Below are positions 17,536 to 22,475 of a stretch of 64,000 nt of DNA, in pieces (position 1 is the stretch's first letter; every line of letters starts with the position of its first letter). The DNA comes from Actinobacteria bacterium IMCC19121 (GTDB lineage: Bacteria > Actinomycetota > Actinomycetes > Nanopelagicales > Nanopelagicaceae), in the NCBI GenBank assembly GCA_002284895.1, contig CP015605.1, positions 186,001 to 250,000 on the forward strand. Direction: 5' to 3'. The notes beneath the pieces were generated by a model. That model was not told the DNA's origin. It was given only the letters and a program-made list of their open reading frames with translations, and searched no databases. A program made the translations under genes and the position numbers.

Positions 17536-18004
17536 CGAGCGTCTCTTCGTAGATTTCACCGGATTGGTCATACGGATCTGGAACCTCTAATCTATTGAAT
17601 TGCGCTGACTCTGGATCAATTGCCGATAGAGCTGGATCAAAGCAACGTAGGTAGAAAACTTTGCTCCGTGAGTCATTATCTGGTGCAAGTTCAATTACCT
17701 TCTTATAGTTATTTGAATCCATCACCAAAATTAAATCTGCTTCAAAGAAATCACTTGACTTAAATTGGCGCGCAGAGTGGGAGTATTTGTATCCAGCTTT
17801 TTCCCAAGTTTTTTGTGAAGTTGGGTGCGCACCTTGACCAATATGCCAAGCACTTGTTCCAGAACTATCAACAATGATCTTGGGCGAACTCCACTGTGCG
17901 GTGCGATTAGATAAAACAGCTGCTGCCATAGGTGAGCGACAGATATTTCCCATACAAACCATCGTTATACGGATTTCAGGCAGAGTTTTTAGATGCTCAA
18001 TCAA
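17483..18004 (-). CDS. Low-molecular-weight protein tyrosine phosphatase
   Basis: 173 aa. The P-loop CMGNICR (Cys17 to Arg23) followed by SPMA is the nucleophile site, and the VPDPYDQSG stretch near 147 carries the general-acid Asp. Cytoplasmic; in this family roles include phosphotyrosine and sometimes arsenate handling, but no ars genes are nearby. The TTG start overlaps the TPR gene stop as TTGA, so the pair is coupled. Confidence 0.87.
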   Translation of the reverse strand: MIEHLKTLPEIRITMVCMGNICRSPMAAAVLSNRTAQWSSPKIIVDSSGTSAWHIGQGAHPTSQKTWEKAGYKYSHSARQFKSSDFFEADLILVMDSNNYKKVIELAPDNDSRSKVFYLRCFDPALSAIDPESAQFNRLEVPDPYDQSGEIYEETLVMIERAVDGLLLELSHQ

Positions 18005-18939
18005 GCCTGCGGCTCTTCATCTAGCGTCTCCTGCACTGACTTCAGGCGACGTTCAATCTCATCGGCCTCATCAGTACGGCCCTGCATGCGAATAATCTTT
18101 GCAATTCTTGTCTCAACATCAACGATAAATTCGAAGTCTTTAGGCTCATCTTCACTGACCACTGAGAGCACCTGCTCCAAAGTGGCTAATGCGTCATCGA
18201 ATTTCTCGAGCAAAATTTGTGCTTTACCGTATTCAAATTGAGCAAAAGTTTCGCGGCGATGATCATGCCCAGTTTCAAAGACATCAACTGCTTTGCGGGC
18301 AGTTTCAAGGGCTAATTCACCCTCACCTAATTCGATTAAGCATGATGCGATTTTTTGATCGCAGCGAGCAACATGAATGACTTCTTTGTTTCGCTTAAAT
18401 AGAGCCCGTGCTTCTTTGAATGCATCAATAGATCTCTCATAGTTTTTCAGCTCACGCTCAGCACAACCTATGAGATGTAAATCATTTGCTGCACCAATTT
18501 CATTTCCATCGACTAAATGCTCTTGGGCGCACTCATTCATTGTTTCAACAACTTTGTCATATTGCTTTGAGGTGTACCACCACTCACCTAATGTGCAAGC
18601 AAGTTCTAGTGCAATCGGTGATTTGTTCTCACGCAAAATCTCAACTGCTTTGCTCATTGCAGTTGCAGCTTCGTCCATCCGTTTTAATTGGTTTAAGTTA
18701 TAACCAATTGCAGAATATGCCTGAGCTAAACCTTCACTAGGTGCACTGTCTCCAAGTGTTGAGTAAATATCGCGCGCTGTTTCAGCTAACGCTAGCGCTT
18801 CATCGTATTGGCCACGTGCATAAATTCGCGCACTTAATTCATAATAGGTGCTGGCACGTTCTTCGCCATCTACTTCAGGAATTCGATCCCAAAGCATTTC
18901 CTCGGTGATGAGTTCTTCCATGTCGTCATCTTCACTCAC
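18001..18939 (-). CDS. TPR-repeat protein
   Basis: 312 aa, acidic, almost entirely helical with repeated 34-residue TPR-like pairs (for example YDEALALAETARDIYSTLGD, MDEAATAMSKAVEILR, YERSIDAFKEARALFKRN). Cytoplasmic scaffold, partner unknown; coupling to the tyrosine phosphatase suggests they act together. The GTG start at 18939 has TAGAGT exactly 7 nt upstream, the clearest leaderless signature here together with the Crp gene. Confidence 0.8.
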   Translation of the reverse strand: MSEDDDMEELITEEMLWDRIPEVDGEERASTYYELSARIYARGQYDEALALAETARDIYSTLGDSAPSEGLAQAYSAIGYNLNQLKRMDEAATAMSKAVEILRENKSPIALELACTLGEWWYTSKQYDKVVETMNECAQEHLVDGNEIGAANDLHLIGCAERELKNYERSIDAFKEARALFKRNKEVIHVARCDQKIASCLIELGEGELALETARKAVDVFETGHDHRRETFAQFEYGKAQILLEKFDDALATLEQVLSVVSEDEPKDFEFIVDVETRIAKIIRMQGRTDEADEIERRLKSVQETLDEEPQA

Positions 18940-18963: not shown

Positions 18964-20295
18964 TTAGGGACGAGTGGGAATATCGATATGTGGCACCCGC
19001 CAATTCCCAATCTTTTCTCGCCCGGCTTGCATAAGAATTGCAGTCGTAACTTGTCTGATTTGTTGCATGCTCTTTGCATCAAAGCTGTGGCCCCACGGGC
19101 AACGATTGGCCATTGCGCATACCCAGGCGTTAGTGCCCAGATTCAACACTCCTGCACCGCTAGGGGCTGCGTAGTAGGTGCTCATCGCAACAAAACCCTT
19201 CTCTGTAGGGCTGATGCTTGCGCGCGCTAACACTTCAACACCAGGACCTCTCGTGCCCATCGCAGTATCGGCTTCATAGCCATAAATACCTTTGATTGTG
19301 CCGGATTTAGCGATGGCGTTAAAAGGCCAGCTCCGTGCTGTCTGTGCTTCTAAATCTTTCTTGATTCCAACTGCAAAAAACTGTGATCCCATAAACAAAG
19401 ATTCCGGTTGATTAATGTCACGATAGGGAATTCTCTCATTCATTGTTCGGTCAATGAGATATGTTTTTGCATACGCAGTATTGCCACCAAAGACTAATAA
19501 GTTCGTGCCCTCATTTATTTCTTTTTCAATTACATCTCGCATTGCCTGAGTCCAGAATTCGCTATGACCACCCAGCACGATTGAAGATGAATTAATCTCA
19601 GGTGCCGAATCTAAATCAATATCTGTTAGATAATTGATATCTAAGTTGAGTTGTTCCATTAACTGAACAAGGGGTTGTTCCATATATCTAAATTGGCCAG
19701 AGCCATCTCCGTCATAGGGGCGATCAAGTGAAACTGATGTTGCTCTCGTTTCTCTTTGACCATCAGCACCTTTATAGAGTGATTCTCCACCCCACTGGTT
19801 ATATGCCTGCCAGGTGAGAACGGAGGAAACAAAAGTCACACTACTTGGCACTTGCCCTGTAATAACAAGTGGGACAAATGAAGATCGGTAGCCGGGCGAT
19901 TTTAATTTAACTAAATACTGCCCTGGTGGAGTTGATTGCGTGGCAGTAATTTTCTTTGCAGATTTAATCGTTTGAATAAGGCGAGCGCCAGCTCCTTTGT
20001 AATAACCAATTCGATACAGTGAGATATCGGCCGTTTTAGCCCCAACAATTTTTAGAGTTGCACTTTGGCCACACCCAATGCTTGCCTGATCGAAATATCC
20101 CTCGACTCTTTTGGCCTCCTTGCGACGTGAGAAATCTGCGCTAAAGCGCATCGTGACATCTGAGTCCCAGTTCTTGTTTCCGGCCTTTGCATTCTCAGCC
20201 TTGACCCAACCGGCTTGCCACGTGCATTCTTGGGCTGGGGCAGCCACTGGTGCCAGAAGCCCCAGCACTAGGGCACAGACCAGCGATAACCTCAT
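18964..20295 (-). CDS. Secreted protein related to the N,N-dimethylformamidase beta-subunit C-terminal domain
   Basis: 443 aa with signal peptide (1-21, cleavage near APAQE). After an N-terminal beta-rich domain (YRIGYYKGAGARLI, 'bad fibre' type seen in the family) comes an alpha/beta domain with LTWQAYNQWGGESLY, SLDRPYD, LDINYLTDIDLD, VLGGHSEFW and LVFGGNTAYAK. These segments resemble the large-subunit C-terminal domain of DMF amidohydrolases, found in many exported actinobacterial proteins without known substrate. Exported Cys pairs may form disulfides. Enzymatic activity is not proven. Confidence 0.7.
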   Translation of the reverse strand: MRLSLVCALVLGLLAPVAAPAQECTWQAGWVKAENAKAGNKNWDSDVTMRFSADFSRRKEAKRVEGYFDQASIGCGQSATLKIVGAKTADISLYRIGYYKGAGARLIQTIKSAKKITATQSTPPGQYLVKLKSPGYRSSFVPLVITGQVPSSVTFVSSVLTWQAYNQWGGESLYKGADGQRETRATSVSLDRPYDGDGSGQFRYMEQPLVQLMEQLNLDINYLTDIDLDSAPEINSSSIVLGGHSEFWTQAMRDVIEKEINEGTNLLVFGGNTAYAKTYLIDRTMNERIPYRDINQPESLFMGSQFFAVGIKKDLEAQTARSWPFNAIAKSGTIKGIYGYEADTAMGTRGPGVEVLARASISPTEKGFVAMSTYYAAPSGAGVLNLGTNAWVCAMANRCPWGHSFDAKSMQQIRQVTTAILMQAGREKIGNWRVPHIDIPTRP

Positions 20296-20320
20296 CTGCC
20301 AACCTTAAACTCGTTTCAAA

Positions 20321-20372
20321 TGGACAGCCCCCTGAGCGTGACTTACGCTTTCTACCTGCAAATCATTTGCAA
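20321..20372 (+). promoter_or_regulatory. Candidate promoter with Nur-like nickel operator at the transcription start
   Basis: TGGACA (20321-20326) and TACGCT (20344-20349) are separated by 17 nt and fit a sigma-70-type promoter whose start would fall near 20356. Exactly there lies cTGCAA-ATCAT-TTGCAA (20356-20372), an almost perfect match to the published actinobacterial Nur box tTGCaa-N5-ttGCAA. Equivalent reading: a 7-1-7 palindrome TGCAAATCATTTGCA. An operator over the +1 site would repress by blocking polymerase. AGGAGG at 20375-20380 follows at once. Confidence 0.72.
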
Positions 20373-20386
20373 CTAGGAGGCCCCTT

Positions 20387-21574
20387 TTGAACGTCGTAGT
20401 TAAGCCGGTTGAGCGCACCCCGCTTGCCCAGATGCTCACACGCGATGAATGGCGCCGAATGGCTGCCATGTTTGGGTTCATTCTTTTCCTTCACGTTTCT
20501 GGCGCCCTATTAATGTGGCAAGCAACTTCTGGAAGATACGAGTTAAGTGATGGAACTCTTTTTGGTTGGGGAACTGCAGCTCTTGCATACACATTAGGTA
20601 TGCGTCACGCATTTGATGCCGATCACATTAGTGCCATTGATAACACAACTCGTAAGTTGATGTCGGAAGGCAAGCGTCCGCTAGCTGTGGGTTTCTTCTT
20701 CTCGCTTGGTCACTCATCTGTTGTTGCCGTTCTTGCACTTCTGCTCAACTTTGGAATTAAAGCTCTAGGTTCACAATTAAAAGATGAAAACTCTCAACTC
20801 CATCACTACACCGGCCTTATTGGTCTGACTGTAAGTGGAACATTCCTGATGCTTATTGCAATACTTAATCTCGTTATTTTGGTTTCTATTGTTGGTGTTT
20901 TTATTCAAATGCGTAAAGGCACATACAACGAAGAAGAATTAGAAAAACACTTAAACTCCCGCGGTTTACTCATGCGCTTCTTTGGTCCAATAGCACGACG
21001 CATTGATGCTTCATGGAAGATGTATCCACTAGGTATTCTTTTTGGTCTAGGTTTTGATACTGCAACTGAAGTTGGTTTACTAGTTCTGGCTGGAACTTCA
21101 GTTATTGCTGGACTTCCGTGGTGGGCAATTCTTTCGCTGCCTTTGTTCTTTGCTGCTGGCATGAGCTTGCTTGACACAATTGATGGTTCTTTCATGAACT
21201 TTGCTTATGGCTGGGCGTTTTCAAAGCCAGTGCGCAAGGTTTACTACAACATCATTATTACTGGACTCTCCGTAGGAGTTGCATTATTTGTTGGTGGATT
21301 AGAACTCTGCCAAGTCTTTGCCCAACAGTTAAATCTCACTGGGGGCTTTTGGGACTATGCCCTGGCCTTTAATTTAAACAGTGCTGGGTACTTCATTGTG
21401 GCCGCTTTTGCTGTGGTCTGGACTGTGGCATTACTACTCTGGAAATACGGCAAAATTGAAGAGCGTTGGCATAACAAAGCACATGCGGCTCAATTAGCAC
21501 GTGGTGAACAAAGCAATCACACCGCAGCTGGAATTGATTTAGGACCTATTACCGATGGATTTAAGATCGATTAA
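20387..21574 (+). CDS. Nickel/cobalt permease, NiCoT family (HoxN/NixA-like)
   Basis: 395 aa, about eight membrane helices. The NiCoT helix II signature HAFDADH (74-80, HX4DH, metal-binding) followed by ISAIDNTTR is present, with FFFSLGHSSVV and LGFDTATEV as the other family motifs. High-affinity secondary uptake of Ni2+ and/or Co2+. Start is TTG at 20387, chosen because AGGAGG lies 6 nt upstream. The Nur-like operator just before the ribosome site argues for nickel as substrate; a Ni superoxide dismutase elsewhere would be the likely user (inference). 3' end overlaps the DMT gene by 14 nt. Confidence 0.92.
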   Translation: MNVVVKPVERTPLAQMLTRDEWRRMAAMFGFILFLHVSGALLMWQATSGRYELSDGTLFGWGTAALAYTLGMRHAFDADHISAIDNTTRKLMSEGKRPLAVGFFFSLGHSSVVAVLALLLNFGIKALGSQLKDENSQLHHYTGLIGLTVSGTFLMLIAILNLVILVSIVGVFIQMRKGTYNEEELEKHLNSRGLLMRFFGPIARRIDASWKMYPLGILFGLGFDTATEVGLLVLAGTSVIAGLPWWAILSLPLFFAAGMSLLDTIDGSFMNFAYGWAFSKPVRKVYYNIIITGLSVGVALFVGGLELCQVFAQQLNLTGGFWDYALAFNLNSAGYFIVAAFAVVWTVALLLWKYGKIEERWHNKAHAAQLARGEQSNHTAAGIDLGPITDGFKID

Positions 21575-22475
21575 AGATTTTTATACGCTGCTGACCAATA
21601 GCTGCGCCAAGTAAAACAATCAAAGCACCAACTGGTTCATTCCAAACAATCGATTCACCTAGGAAGATGATTCCAACAATCACCGCAACTACTGGTGTCA
21701 CATATGTAACAGTGCTTGCAATGGCGCTACCAGCAGCTTCCATGATCTTAAAGTTCCAGATATATGCAAAGCCACTACCAAATACACCTAATGCAATCAT
21801 TGCAAGAACTGGTCCTGCTCGGTATTCATCTTTAGCTATTCCATCGATGAGATAGAAAGGAAGTAGCGTGAGAGCACCAGCTGAAACTTGCCCAGCTGCA
21901 ATTGCTTCGGGTTTTAATTTATGAGGCAAAACAAATTTGCGTGAATAAGGAAATGAAACTCCATAGCAAGTCACTGCAAAGAGAAGGGCTGCGACGGCAA
22001 TTATTGGGTTAGCACCTAAACCTTGCCATGCACCAAGAACAGTAAGAACACCAACAAAACCAAGTAGCAGTCCAACAACTTGGTAGTTCTTAGGTTTTTC
22101 TTCACGAAAGGCAATCATGATTGCAAGCAAGGTCATTAACGGTGTGACGGCATTAATAATTCCAGCCAAAATAGATGTGACTTTTGTTTCAGCAAAAGCA
22201 AAAAGAAATCCTGGGATTACATTTAGTAATAAAGCCACAACCCATAAATGCAGCCACAACTTCTTATCTTTAGGAAGCTCAATTCCTTTATAGCGTGCCC
22301 AGAAAACTAAAGTGAGTGCCCCTAAGGAAACACGGCCAAAAGCCACGCCAATAGGGGTTAGAAACTCCAAACCCATCTTGATGAAGATAAAGGAACAGCC
22401 CCAGACAACGCCTAAGGCGATGTAGAGGCTGATCCAGTTAGAGCTGTTTTTATGGGTAGCTGAGTGAGAATGCAC
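21561..22475 (-). CDS. EamA/DMT-superfamily transporter
   Basis: 304 aa, ten predicted membrane helices in two EamA repeats (first starts ALGVVWGCSFIFIKMGLEFL, second near IIAVAALLFAVTCYGVSFP). Drug/metabolite exporters of this type carry amino acids or small metabolites; substrate unknown. The GTG start lies 26 nt inside the ctaE reading frame, so it is at the end of the oxidase operon, perhaps only by streamlining. Confidence 0.85.
   Translation of the reverse strand: MHSHSATHKNSSNWISLYIALGVVWGCSFIFIKMGLEFLTPIGVAFGRVSLGALTLVFWARYKGIELPKDKKLWLHLWVVALLLNVIPGFLFAFAETKVTSILAGIINAVTPLMTLLAIMIAFREEKPKNYQVVGLLLGFVGVLTVLGAWQGLGANPIIAVAALLFAVTCYGVSFPYSRKFVLPHKLKPEAIAAGQVSAGALTLLPFYLIDGIAKDEYRAGPVLAMIALGVFGSGFAYIWNFKIMEAAGSAIASTVTYVTPVVAVIVGIIFLGESIVWNEPVGALIVLLGAAIGQQRIKIFNRS

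Follow-up and report, generated by a model that had tools for sequence, protein, structure and literature searches.

The closest described system to the locus analysed here is the Nur regulon of Streptomyces coelicolor. According to the accessible portions of the reports on it, its targets are nikABCDE and sodF and, indirectly, sodN (PMC3919588, PMC7055735), the operator conforms to the consensus tTGCaa-N5-ttGCAA (PMC3919588), and nur itself lies beside ygfZ (PMC4531530). For NikMNQO and nickel-specific NiCoT permeases control by NikR has been predicted, and the accessible portion of that account makes no mention of Nur (PMC2667541). A literature search for the lineage considered below returned no account of Nur control or of importer exchange, which is weak evidence of absence, with subscription journals mostly uncovered.

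Here we examine a 64,000-nucleotide stretch of the genome of Actinobacteria bacterium IMCC19121 (family Nanopelagicaceae), which is referred to as the window, together with its relatives. Judging from sequence evidence, we put the probability at about 0.9 that a palindrome in it, CTGCAAATCATTTGCAA, is the operator of Nur, a nickel-sensing repressor of the Fur family, and controls nickel uptake by the product of nicT.

A predicted Nur-type operator ahead of nicT

The box lies at 20356..20372 on the + strand of the window, 14 nt 5' of the TTG start codon of nicT (20387..21574, + strand), which codes for a permease of 395 aa belonging to the NiCoT family (PF03824, E 2.8e-95). Its inner 15 bp (20357-20371), TGCAAATcATTTGCA, form a perfect 7-1-7 palindrome. 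Upstream, a predicted -35 element, TGGACA (20321..20326), stands at a spacing of 17 nt from a predicted -10 element, TACGCT (20344..20349), which is separated from the box by the 6 nt TTCTAC; a Shine-Dalgarno sequence, AGGAGG (20375..20380), begins 2 nt past the box, all of these being on the + strand. In this arrangement the box would overlap the transcription start. A sigma-70 scan of 20000-22000 detected no promoter; the two elements were recognized in the sequence and by comparison with 31 close named NicT loci, where TRGAC occurs upstream of the box in 23, TAnnnT, a loose pattern, recurs at the same distance in all 31, and CTAG directly follows the box in 24. Among named sequences, those nearest to the permease come from metagenome-assembled or single-cell genomes whose titles read actinobacterium, Planktophila or Nanopelagicaceae.

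The preliminary description of this locus had read cTGCAA-N5-TTGCAA as a Nur box placed on the predicted start site of a NiCoT gene. The sequence layout is as given there and the box differs from the published Nur box at one position; the promoter that it overlaps, itself a prediction, is largely conserved in close relatives; and the gene behind it is a predicted nickel-uptake gene, its product passing the NCBIfam NicT equivalog NF052500 (498.7 bits against a cut-off of 450).

Within the window CTGCAAATCATTTGCAA is the sole match with one mismatch to the published Nur pattern, and a scan admitting up to two mismatches gives 13 matches against 10.75 expected, which is the chance level. The site is not significant in the window alone; its significance comes from its uniqueness in the whole genome and from its conservation. 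The genome-wide search proposed in the preliminary description found a single perfect TGCAAATnATTTGCA in the 1,506,415 bp of the one contig, and this is the nicT box. Ten sites fall within two mismatches of the 15-mer, eight of them within ORFs of at least 100 aa; the two that lie outside ORFs are the nicT box and one ahead of the DUF4395-nur operon.

Conservation of the box ahead of two types of importer

A NicT match was recovered in 79 of 121 genomes of the family, many of which are drafts, counting a remnant in G020. Two genomes whose matches lack the N-terminal part (G022 and G094) were left out and G076 contributes two copies, giving 78 NicT rows from 77 genomes, the row of G020 being the remnant. 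We scored the upstream regions in both orientations against a 17-mer pattern, wTGCrAAynATTyGCAw, and found the box at up to three mismatches in 76 of the 78 rows (0 mismatches in 44, 1 in 21, 2 in 7 and 3 in 4), a count that is partly circular, the pattern having been shaped on the first loci, and that is drawn from relatives which are not independent. It is absent from G048 and from the second copy of G076. In view of this circularity, the later 48 NicT rows, 46 of them boxed, are a fairer test, as is the CbiM set described below. By comparison, 2.8% of 2,160 Markov-shuffled upstream regions (NicT and CbiM together) reach three or fewer mismatches. Outside the family the distribution is patchy: among 80 named permease relatives the published box at up to one mismatch was also seen in sequences from a Mycobacterium, a Nocardiopsis and Streptosporangiales, and all eight loci titled Acidimicrobiaceae lack it.

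Searching for the box in 20 genomes devoid of NicT gave matches in 19, and in 14 of the 20 loci returned it stands just 5' of a gene whose product starts with MHIPDGFI or a similar sequence, i.e. CbiM/NikM of an ECF importer. The presence of the same kind of operator before an unrelated importer in relatives goes beyond the preliminary description. CbiM scores above the cut-off in 36 of the 121 genomes, with two further matches below it, and was not found in the IMCC19121 genome itself. With the G020 remnant excluded, NicT is present in 78 genomes, CbiM in 36 and neither of them in 7, with no genome combining the two. A box with three or fewer mismatches precedes CbiM in all 30 loci examined out of the 36, and by a score taken both ways 28 of these boxes have 0 or 1 mismatch. 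The box lies 12 nt before the start codon in 20 of the 30 and is directly followed by TAnnnT in 23, an arrangement in which the 17 bp would form the spacer between a TTGCAG-like -35 element and the -10 element of a leaderless transcript. In G028 the operon runs in the order CbiM, PDGLE-domain protein, CbiQ and ABC ATPase.

The 106 importer boxes selected in this way comprise 74 distinct sequences, in which T2, C4, A6, T12, G14 and C15 are invariant. That the site is a chance palindrome, as the failure of the window scan at two mismatches to exceed expectation might suggest, is barely conceivable in view of this diversity of sequences, conserved ahead of nearly every NicT and of each CbiM examined.

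Fur-family regulators and the distinction from zinc boxes

A search with PF01475 recovered two Fur-family proteins from the IMCC19121 genome, one an orthologue of Nur and the other of Zur. The first, encoded at C1:484481-484888, is matched most closely, among solved structures, by Nur 3EYY (E 5.7e-44, against 1.2e-14 for the runner-up), and the two are identical at 71 of the 130 residues aligned, so that the Fur-family Nur gene for which the preliminary description advised looking is indeed present. What we take to be the metal-ligand histidines of Nur, namely 33, 81, 88 and 90 of the M-site and 70, 72 and 126 of the Ni-site, occupy seven columns that are histidine in all 30 Nur loci compared, that of IMCC19121 included; H86 and H87 of 3EYY are not conserved in these loci. 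The gene adjoins ygfZ, which was named from its sequence and not by a profile. As counted among the matches listed, a Nur match of at least 63% identity is present in 98 of the 121 family genomes, and in five genomes at least 90% complete (G041, G042, G068, G104 and G118) the Nur query finds at best a match of 26-33% identity; G041, G042 and G118 have the importer box despite this weak match.

In 14 of 29 loci, compared with 0.9% of shuffles, a box with at most two mismatches also lies at a distance of 450-800 nt on the 5' side of the nur motif, which is consistent with autoregulation of nur. In IMCC19121 and two further loci this box stands ahead of the DUF4395 gene; that of IMCC19121 is weak, with two mismatches in the 15-mer. 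The DUF4395 gene (L201:3910-4362, equivalent to C1:483923-484375) directly precedes nur and has the nur-operon box in common with it.

Similar palindromes found ahead of cysK and of a rhodanese gene in a few genomes could mean that the operator is real and is bound by a different palindrome-recognizing regulator. We regard this as highly improbable, given that PF01475 recovers just two Fur-family proteins from the genome, that the published Nur consensus fits and that the nur operon is itself boxed in the above 14 loci.

As separate observations, in two genera (L130:1500; L225/L370 of G052) the interval from an NAD-synthase-like gene to cysK contains a box-like palindrome, about 170-190 nt 5' of cysK, and in L130 a cysteine-rich ORF of 25 codons lies in between. 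At about position 1590 of L371 (G079), TTGCAAATGATTCGCAA stands about 196 nt ahead of a rhodanese-like gene, which might be a further target of Nur or belong to another regulator.

The second Fur-family protein is a Zur by structure match (3MWM, E 1.3e-38), and its gene follows a ZIP gene, beside ORFs read as uppS and recO. The ZIP-zur operon is preceded by a box of its own, TGAAAATCATTTTCA, and the resemblance between the two kinds of box has to be weighed: the nicT box has the 7-1-7 geometry and AATcATT core common to Zur boxes, its 15-mer TGCAAATCATTTGCA differs from TGAAAATCATTTTCA at just two bases, and the Zur of S. coelicolor binds a 7-1-7 repeat, TGAAAATGATTTTCA, in the accessible portion of its description (PMC2823685). 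The nicT box might on these grounds be a Zur operator, with NicT answering to zinc. However, all 106 importer boxes have C4 and G14 (17-mer numbering), two bases that were held by the pattern used to select them, and these never occur together in 18 Zur-type boxes, where A and T or C stand in their place. These 18 were recovered at two or fewer mismatches from 20 zur upstream regions of relatives; of the remaining two, that of G072 has a box at three mismatches and that of G008, cut by a contig end, has none. The nicT box departs in the same manner from the Zur form TGAAAATnATTTTCA, C and G replacing A and T, and the genes behind the importer boxes are nickel/cobalt importers, none of them zinc genes. 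Control of nicT by zinc through Zur is thus very unlikely, and the preliminary description's own caveat, that such boxes might be placed mainly at zinc genes, is not borne out, ZIP-zur having its separate Zur-type box. In these boxes a single base per half-site would appear to separate the importer operators from the Zur-type ones. Zur was put aside as the binder, the boxes of the ZIP-zur operon and of the relatives' zur genes differing at the discriminating base.

Nickel demand and the proposed mechanism

The preliminary description had also suggested looking for nickel enzymes, with SodN and urease as examples. The former holds, in that the IMCC19121 genome and 109 others, i.e. 110 of the 121 family genomes, code for NiSOD; the latter does not, since urease, like Fe/Mn-SOD, Cu/Zn-SOD and CbiC, was searched for in the IMCC19121 genome and not found. 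Across the 121 genomes Fe/Mn-SOD occurs in one (G092), Cu/Zn-SOD in none and CbiC, a marker of B12 synthesis, in none; the urease alpha subunit is above the cut-off in four and clear in one (G011). The single Fe/Mn-SOD (G092:C4:19040-19339) belongs to a genome that is 81% complete and in which NiSOD was not found. Four complete acI genomes are described, in the accessible portion of the report, as having no B12 pathway, with a predicted ECF cobalt/nickel module in one (PMC5301498). Because of this report, the SOD counts and the absence of CbiC from all 121 genomes, nickel for superoxide dismutase is the likely demand and cobalt for making B12 an unlikely one; the latter was put aside on the CbiC count. 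The lake actinobacteria of this family thus appear to be dependent on nickel for the sole superoxide dismutase found in most of them. In a 3.4-kb stretch around sodN of IMCC19121 the best match to the symmetric 15-mer has four mismatches. Repression of sodF, as practised by the Nur of one species, has no counterpart here, the search for Fe/Mn-SOD having yielded no such target in the genome.

We propose that when nickel is plentiful a nickel-bound Nur dimer would occupy the palindrome of 17 bp, placed over the predicted start of nicT transcription, and block RNA polymerase. When nickel is scarce Nur would release the operator, and NicT would take up nickel to supply NiSOD, no other superoxide dismutase having been found. 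What we infer in this scheme is that Nur binds, that nickel is the co-repressor, where transcription starts, that nicT is repressed and that both importers carry nickel. For NicT, nickel transport is deduced from the Nur box, the presence of NiSOD and the absence of CbiC, and for CbiM nickel is the predicted substrate. The box would in this manner link uptake to a nickel sensor, and it suggests nickel over cobalt for two types of importer whose substrate sequence leaves unsettled.

Probable exchange of importers at one chromosomal slot

Synteny around nicT delineates a slot in which the importer varies. In the window its left side is formed by genes for a TPR protein (18001..18939, - strand, from domain searches), which holds this place in 12 of 12 same-genus loci compared, and for a divergent neighbour with a DMFA2_C domain (18964..20295, - strand; PF20254, E 4.7e-58), which is the left border in part of the genus; the right border is an EamA transporter gene (21561..22475, - strand, from domain searches), which recurs in 9 of the 12. 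NicT lies in this slot in the window, G040, G091, G097 and G103, and CbiM is flanked by the TPR (or DMFA2_C) gene and EamA in G067, G016, G061, G028 and G079, so that in the five same-genus CbiM genomes compared the operon occupies the place of NicT in the window. G109, G051 and G115 share this left side; no EamA gene was seen in the region retrieved for each of them.

In two close pairs the flank, operator included, was kept while the importer changed. Over the 3.9 kb that lead up to the start codon, G097 (NicT) and G079 (CbiM) share 93.6% identity, and from EamA onward they again agree, at 96.8%; three bases distinguish their boxes, each of which is within one mismatch of the pattern. In G040 and G061 the flank is kept up to the operator, with 49 of 60 bases identical just upstream of it. 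In G040/G016, G091/G028 and others it is not, so that in some exchanges the importer seems to have come with a promoter of its own. In G020 (L363, 2989-3246) a NicT remnant with a stop codon is followed by an intact CbiM frame, both of them boxed, and in G082 (L361, 3119-3325) the NicT frame stops after 68 codons. These truncated copies with a recognizable operator are apparent recent losses of the importer, or else breaks in draft assemblies.

A tree of Nur and YgfZ from 70 genomes requires 13 or more changes of importer, a number that is approximate, the tree being built by a quick method from two adjacent genes of partly draft genomes, with 14 of 66 inner branches below 80% support. Sister pairs with differing importers on it include G000/G067 and G097/G079. 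On balance, we lean towards a picture in which, in these lake actinobacteria with their streamlined genomes, one operator acts as a plug-in slot, NicT and the four-gene ECF CbiM/NikM system having been swapped repeatedly (these at least 13 changes), sometimes at one site, with the operator either kept or brought along; selection would then hold the regulatory input and not the transporter, and a single base per half-site would keep nickel and zinc control apart. If this is true, the replacement of one importer by another behind a common operator offers a natural experiment on how regulation may outlive its target gene, and it is directly testable in sister genomes, for instance G079 and G097.

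Comparison with known systems

The half-sites TGCAA-N5-TTGCA in the same 6-5-6 frame, the position of nur beside ygfZ and a nickel-uptake target are shared with the S. coelicolor Nur regulon as far as the accessible text describes it (PMC3919588, PMC7055735). Unlike in that regulon, the importer here is NicT, or an ECF system in relatives, and there is no sodF target; moreover, the N5 usually reads ATnAT, lengthening the palindrome to 7-1-7. As a member of NF052500 the NicT protein itself shows no difference, the Nur-type operator being the addition. The relatives' ECF operons resemble CbiMNQO/NikMNQO transporters in gene content, as in the G028 operon above, and differ in carrying the same kind of box and in taking the slot of NicT in five same-genus loci. 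The actinobacterial Zur box, in the accessible portion of its description, is alike in its 7-1-7 geometry and AATcATT core and differs in having A, not C, as the third base of each half-site (PMC2823685); the ZIP-zur box TGAAAATCATTTTCA of IMCC19121 is of the 7-1-7 form given there for S. coelicolor Zur (PMC2823685). Taken together, the regulator, the box and NicT are of known kinds, and it is the repeated exchange of importers under one conserved operator that is the notable part.
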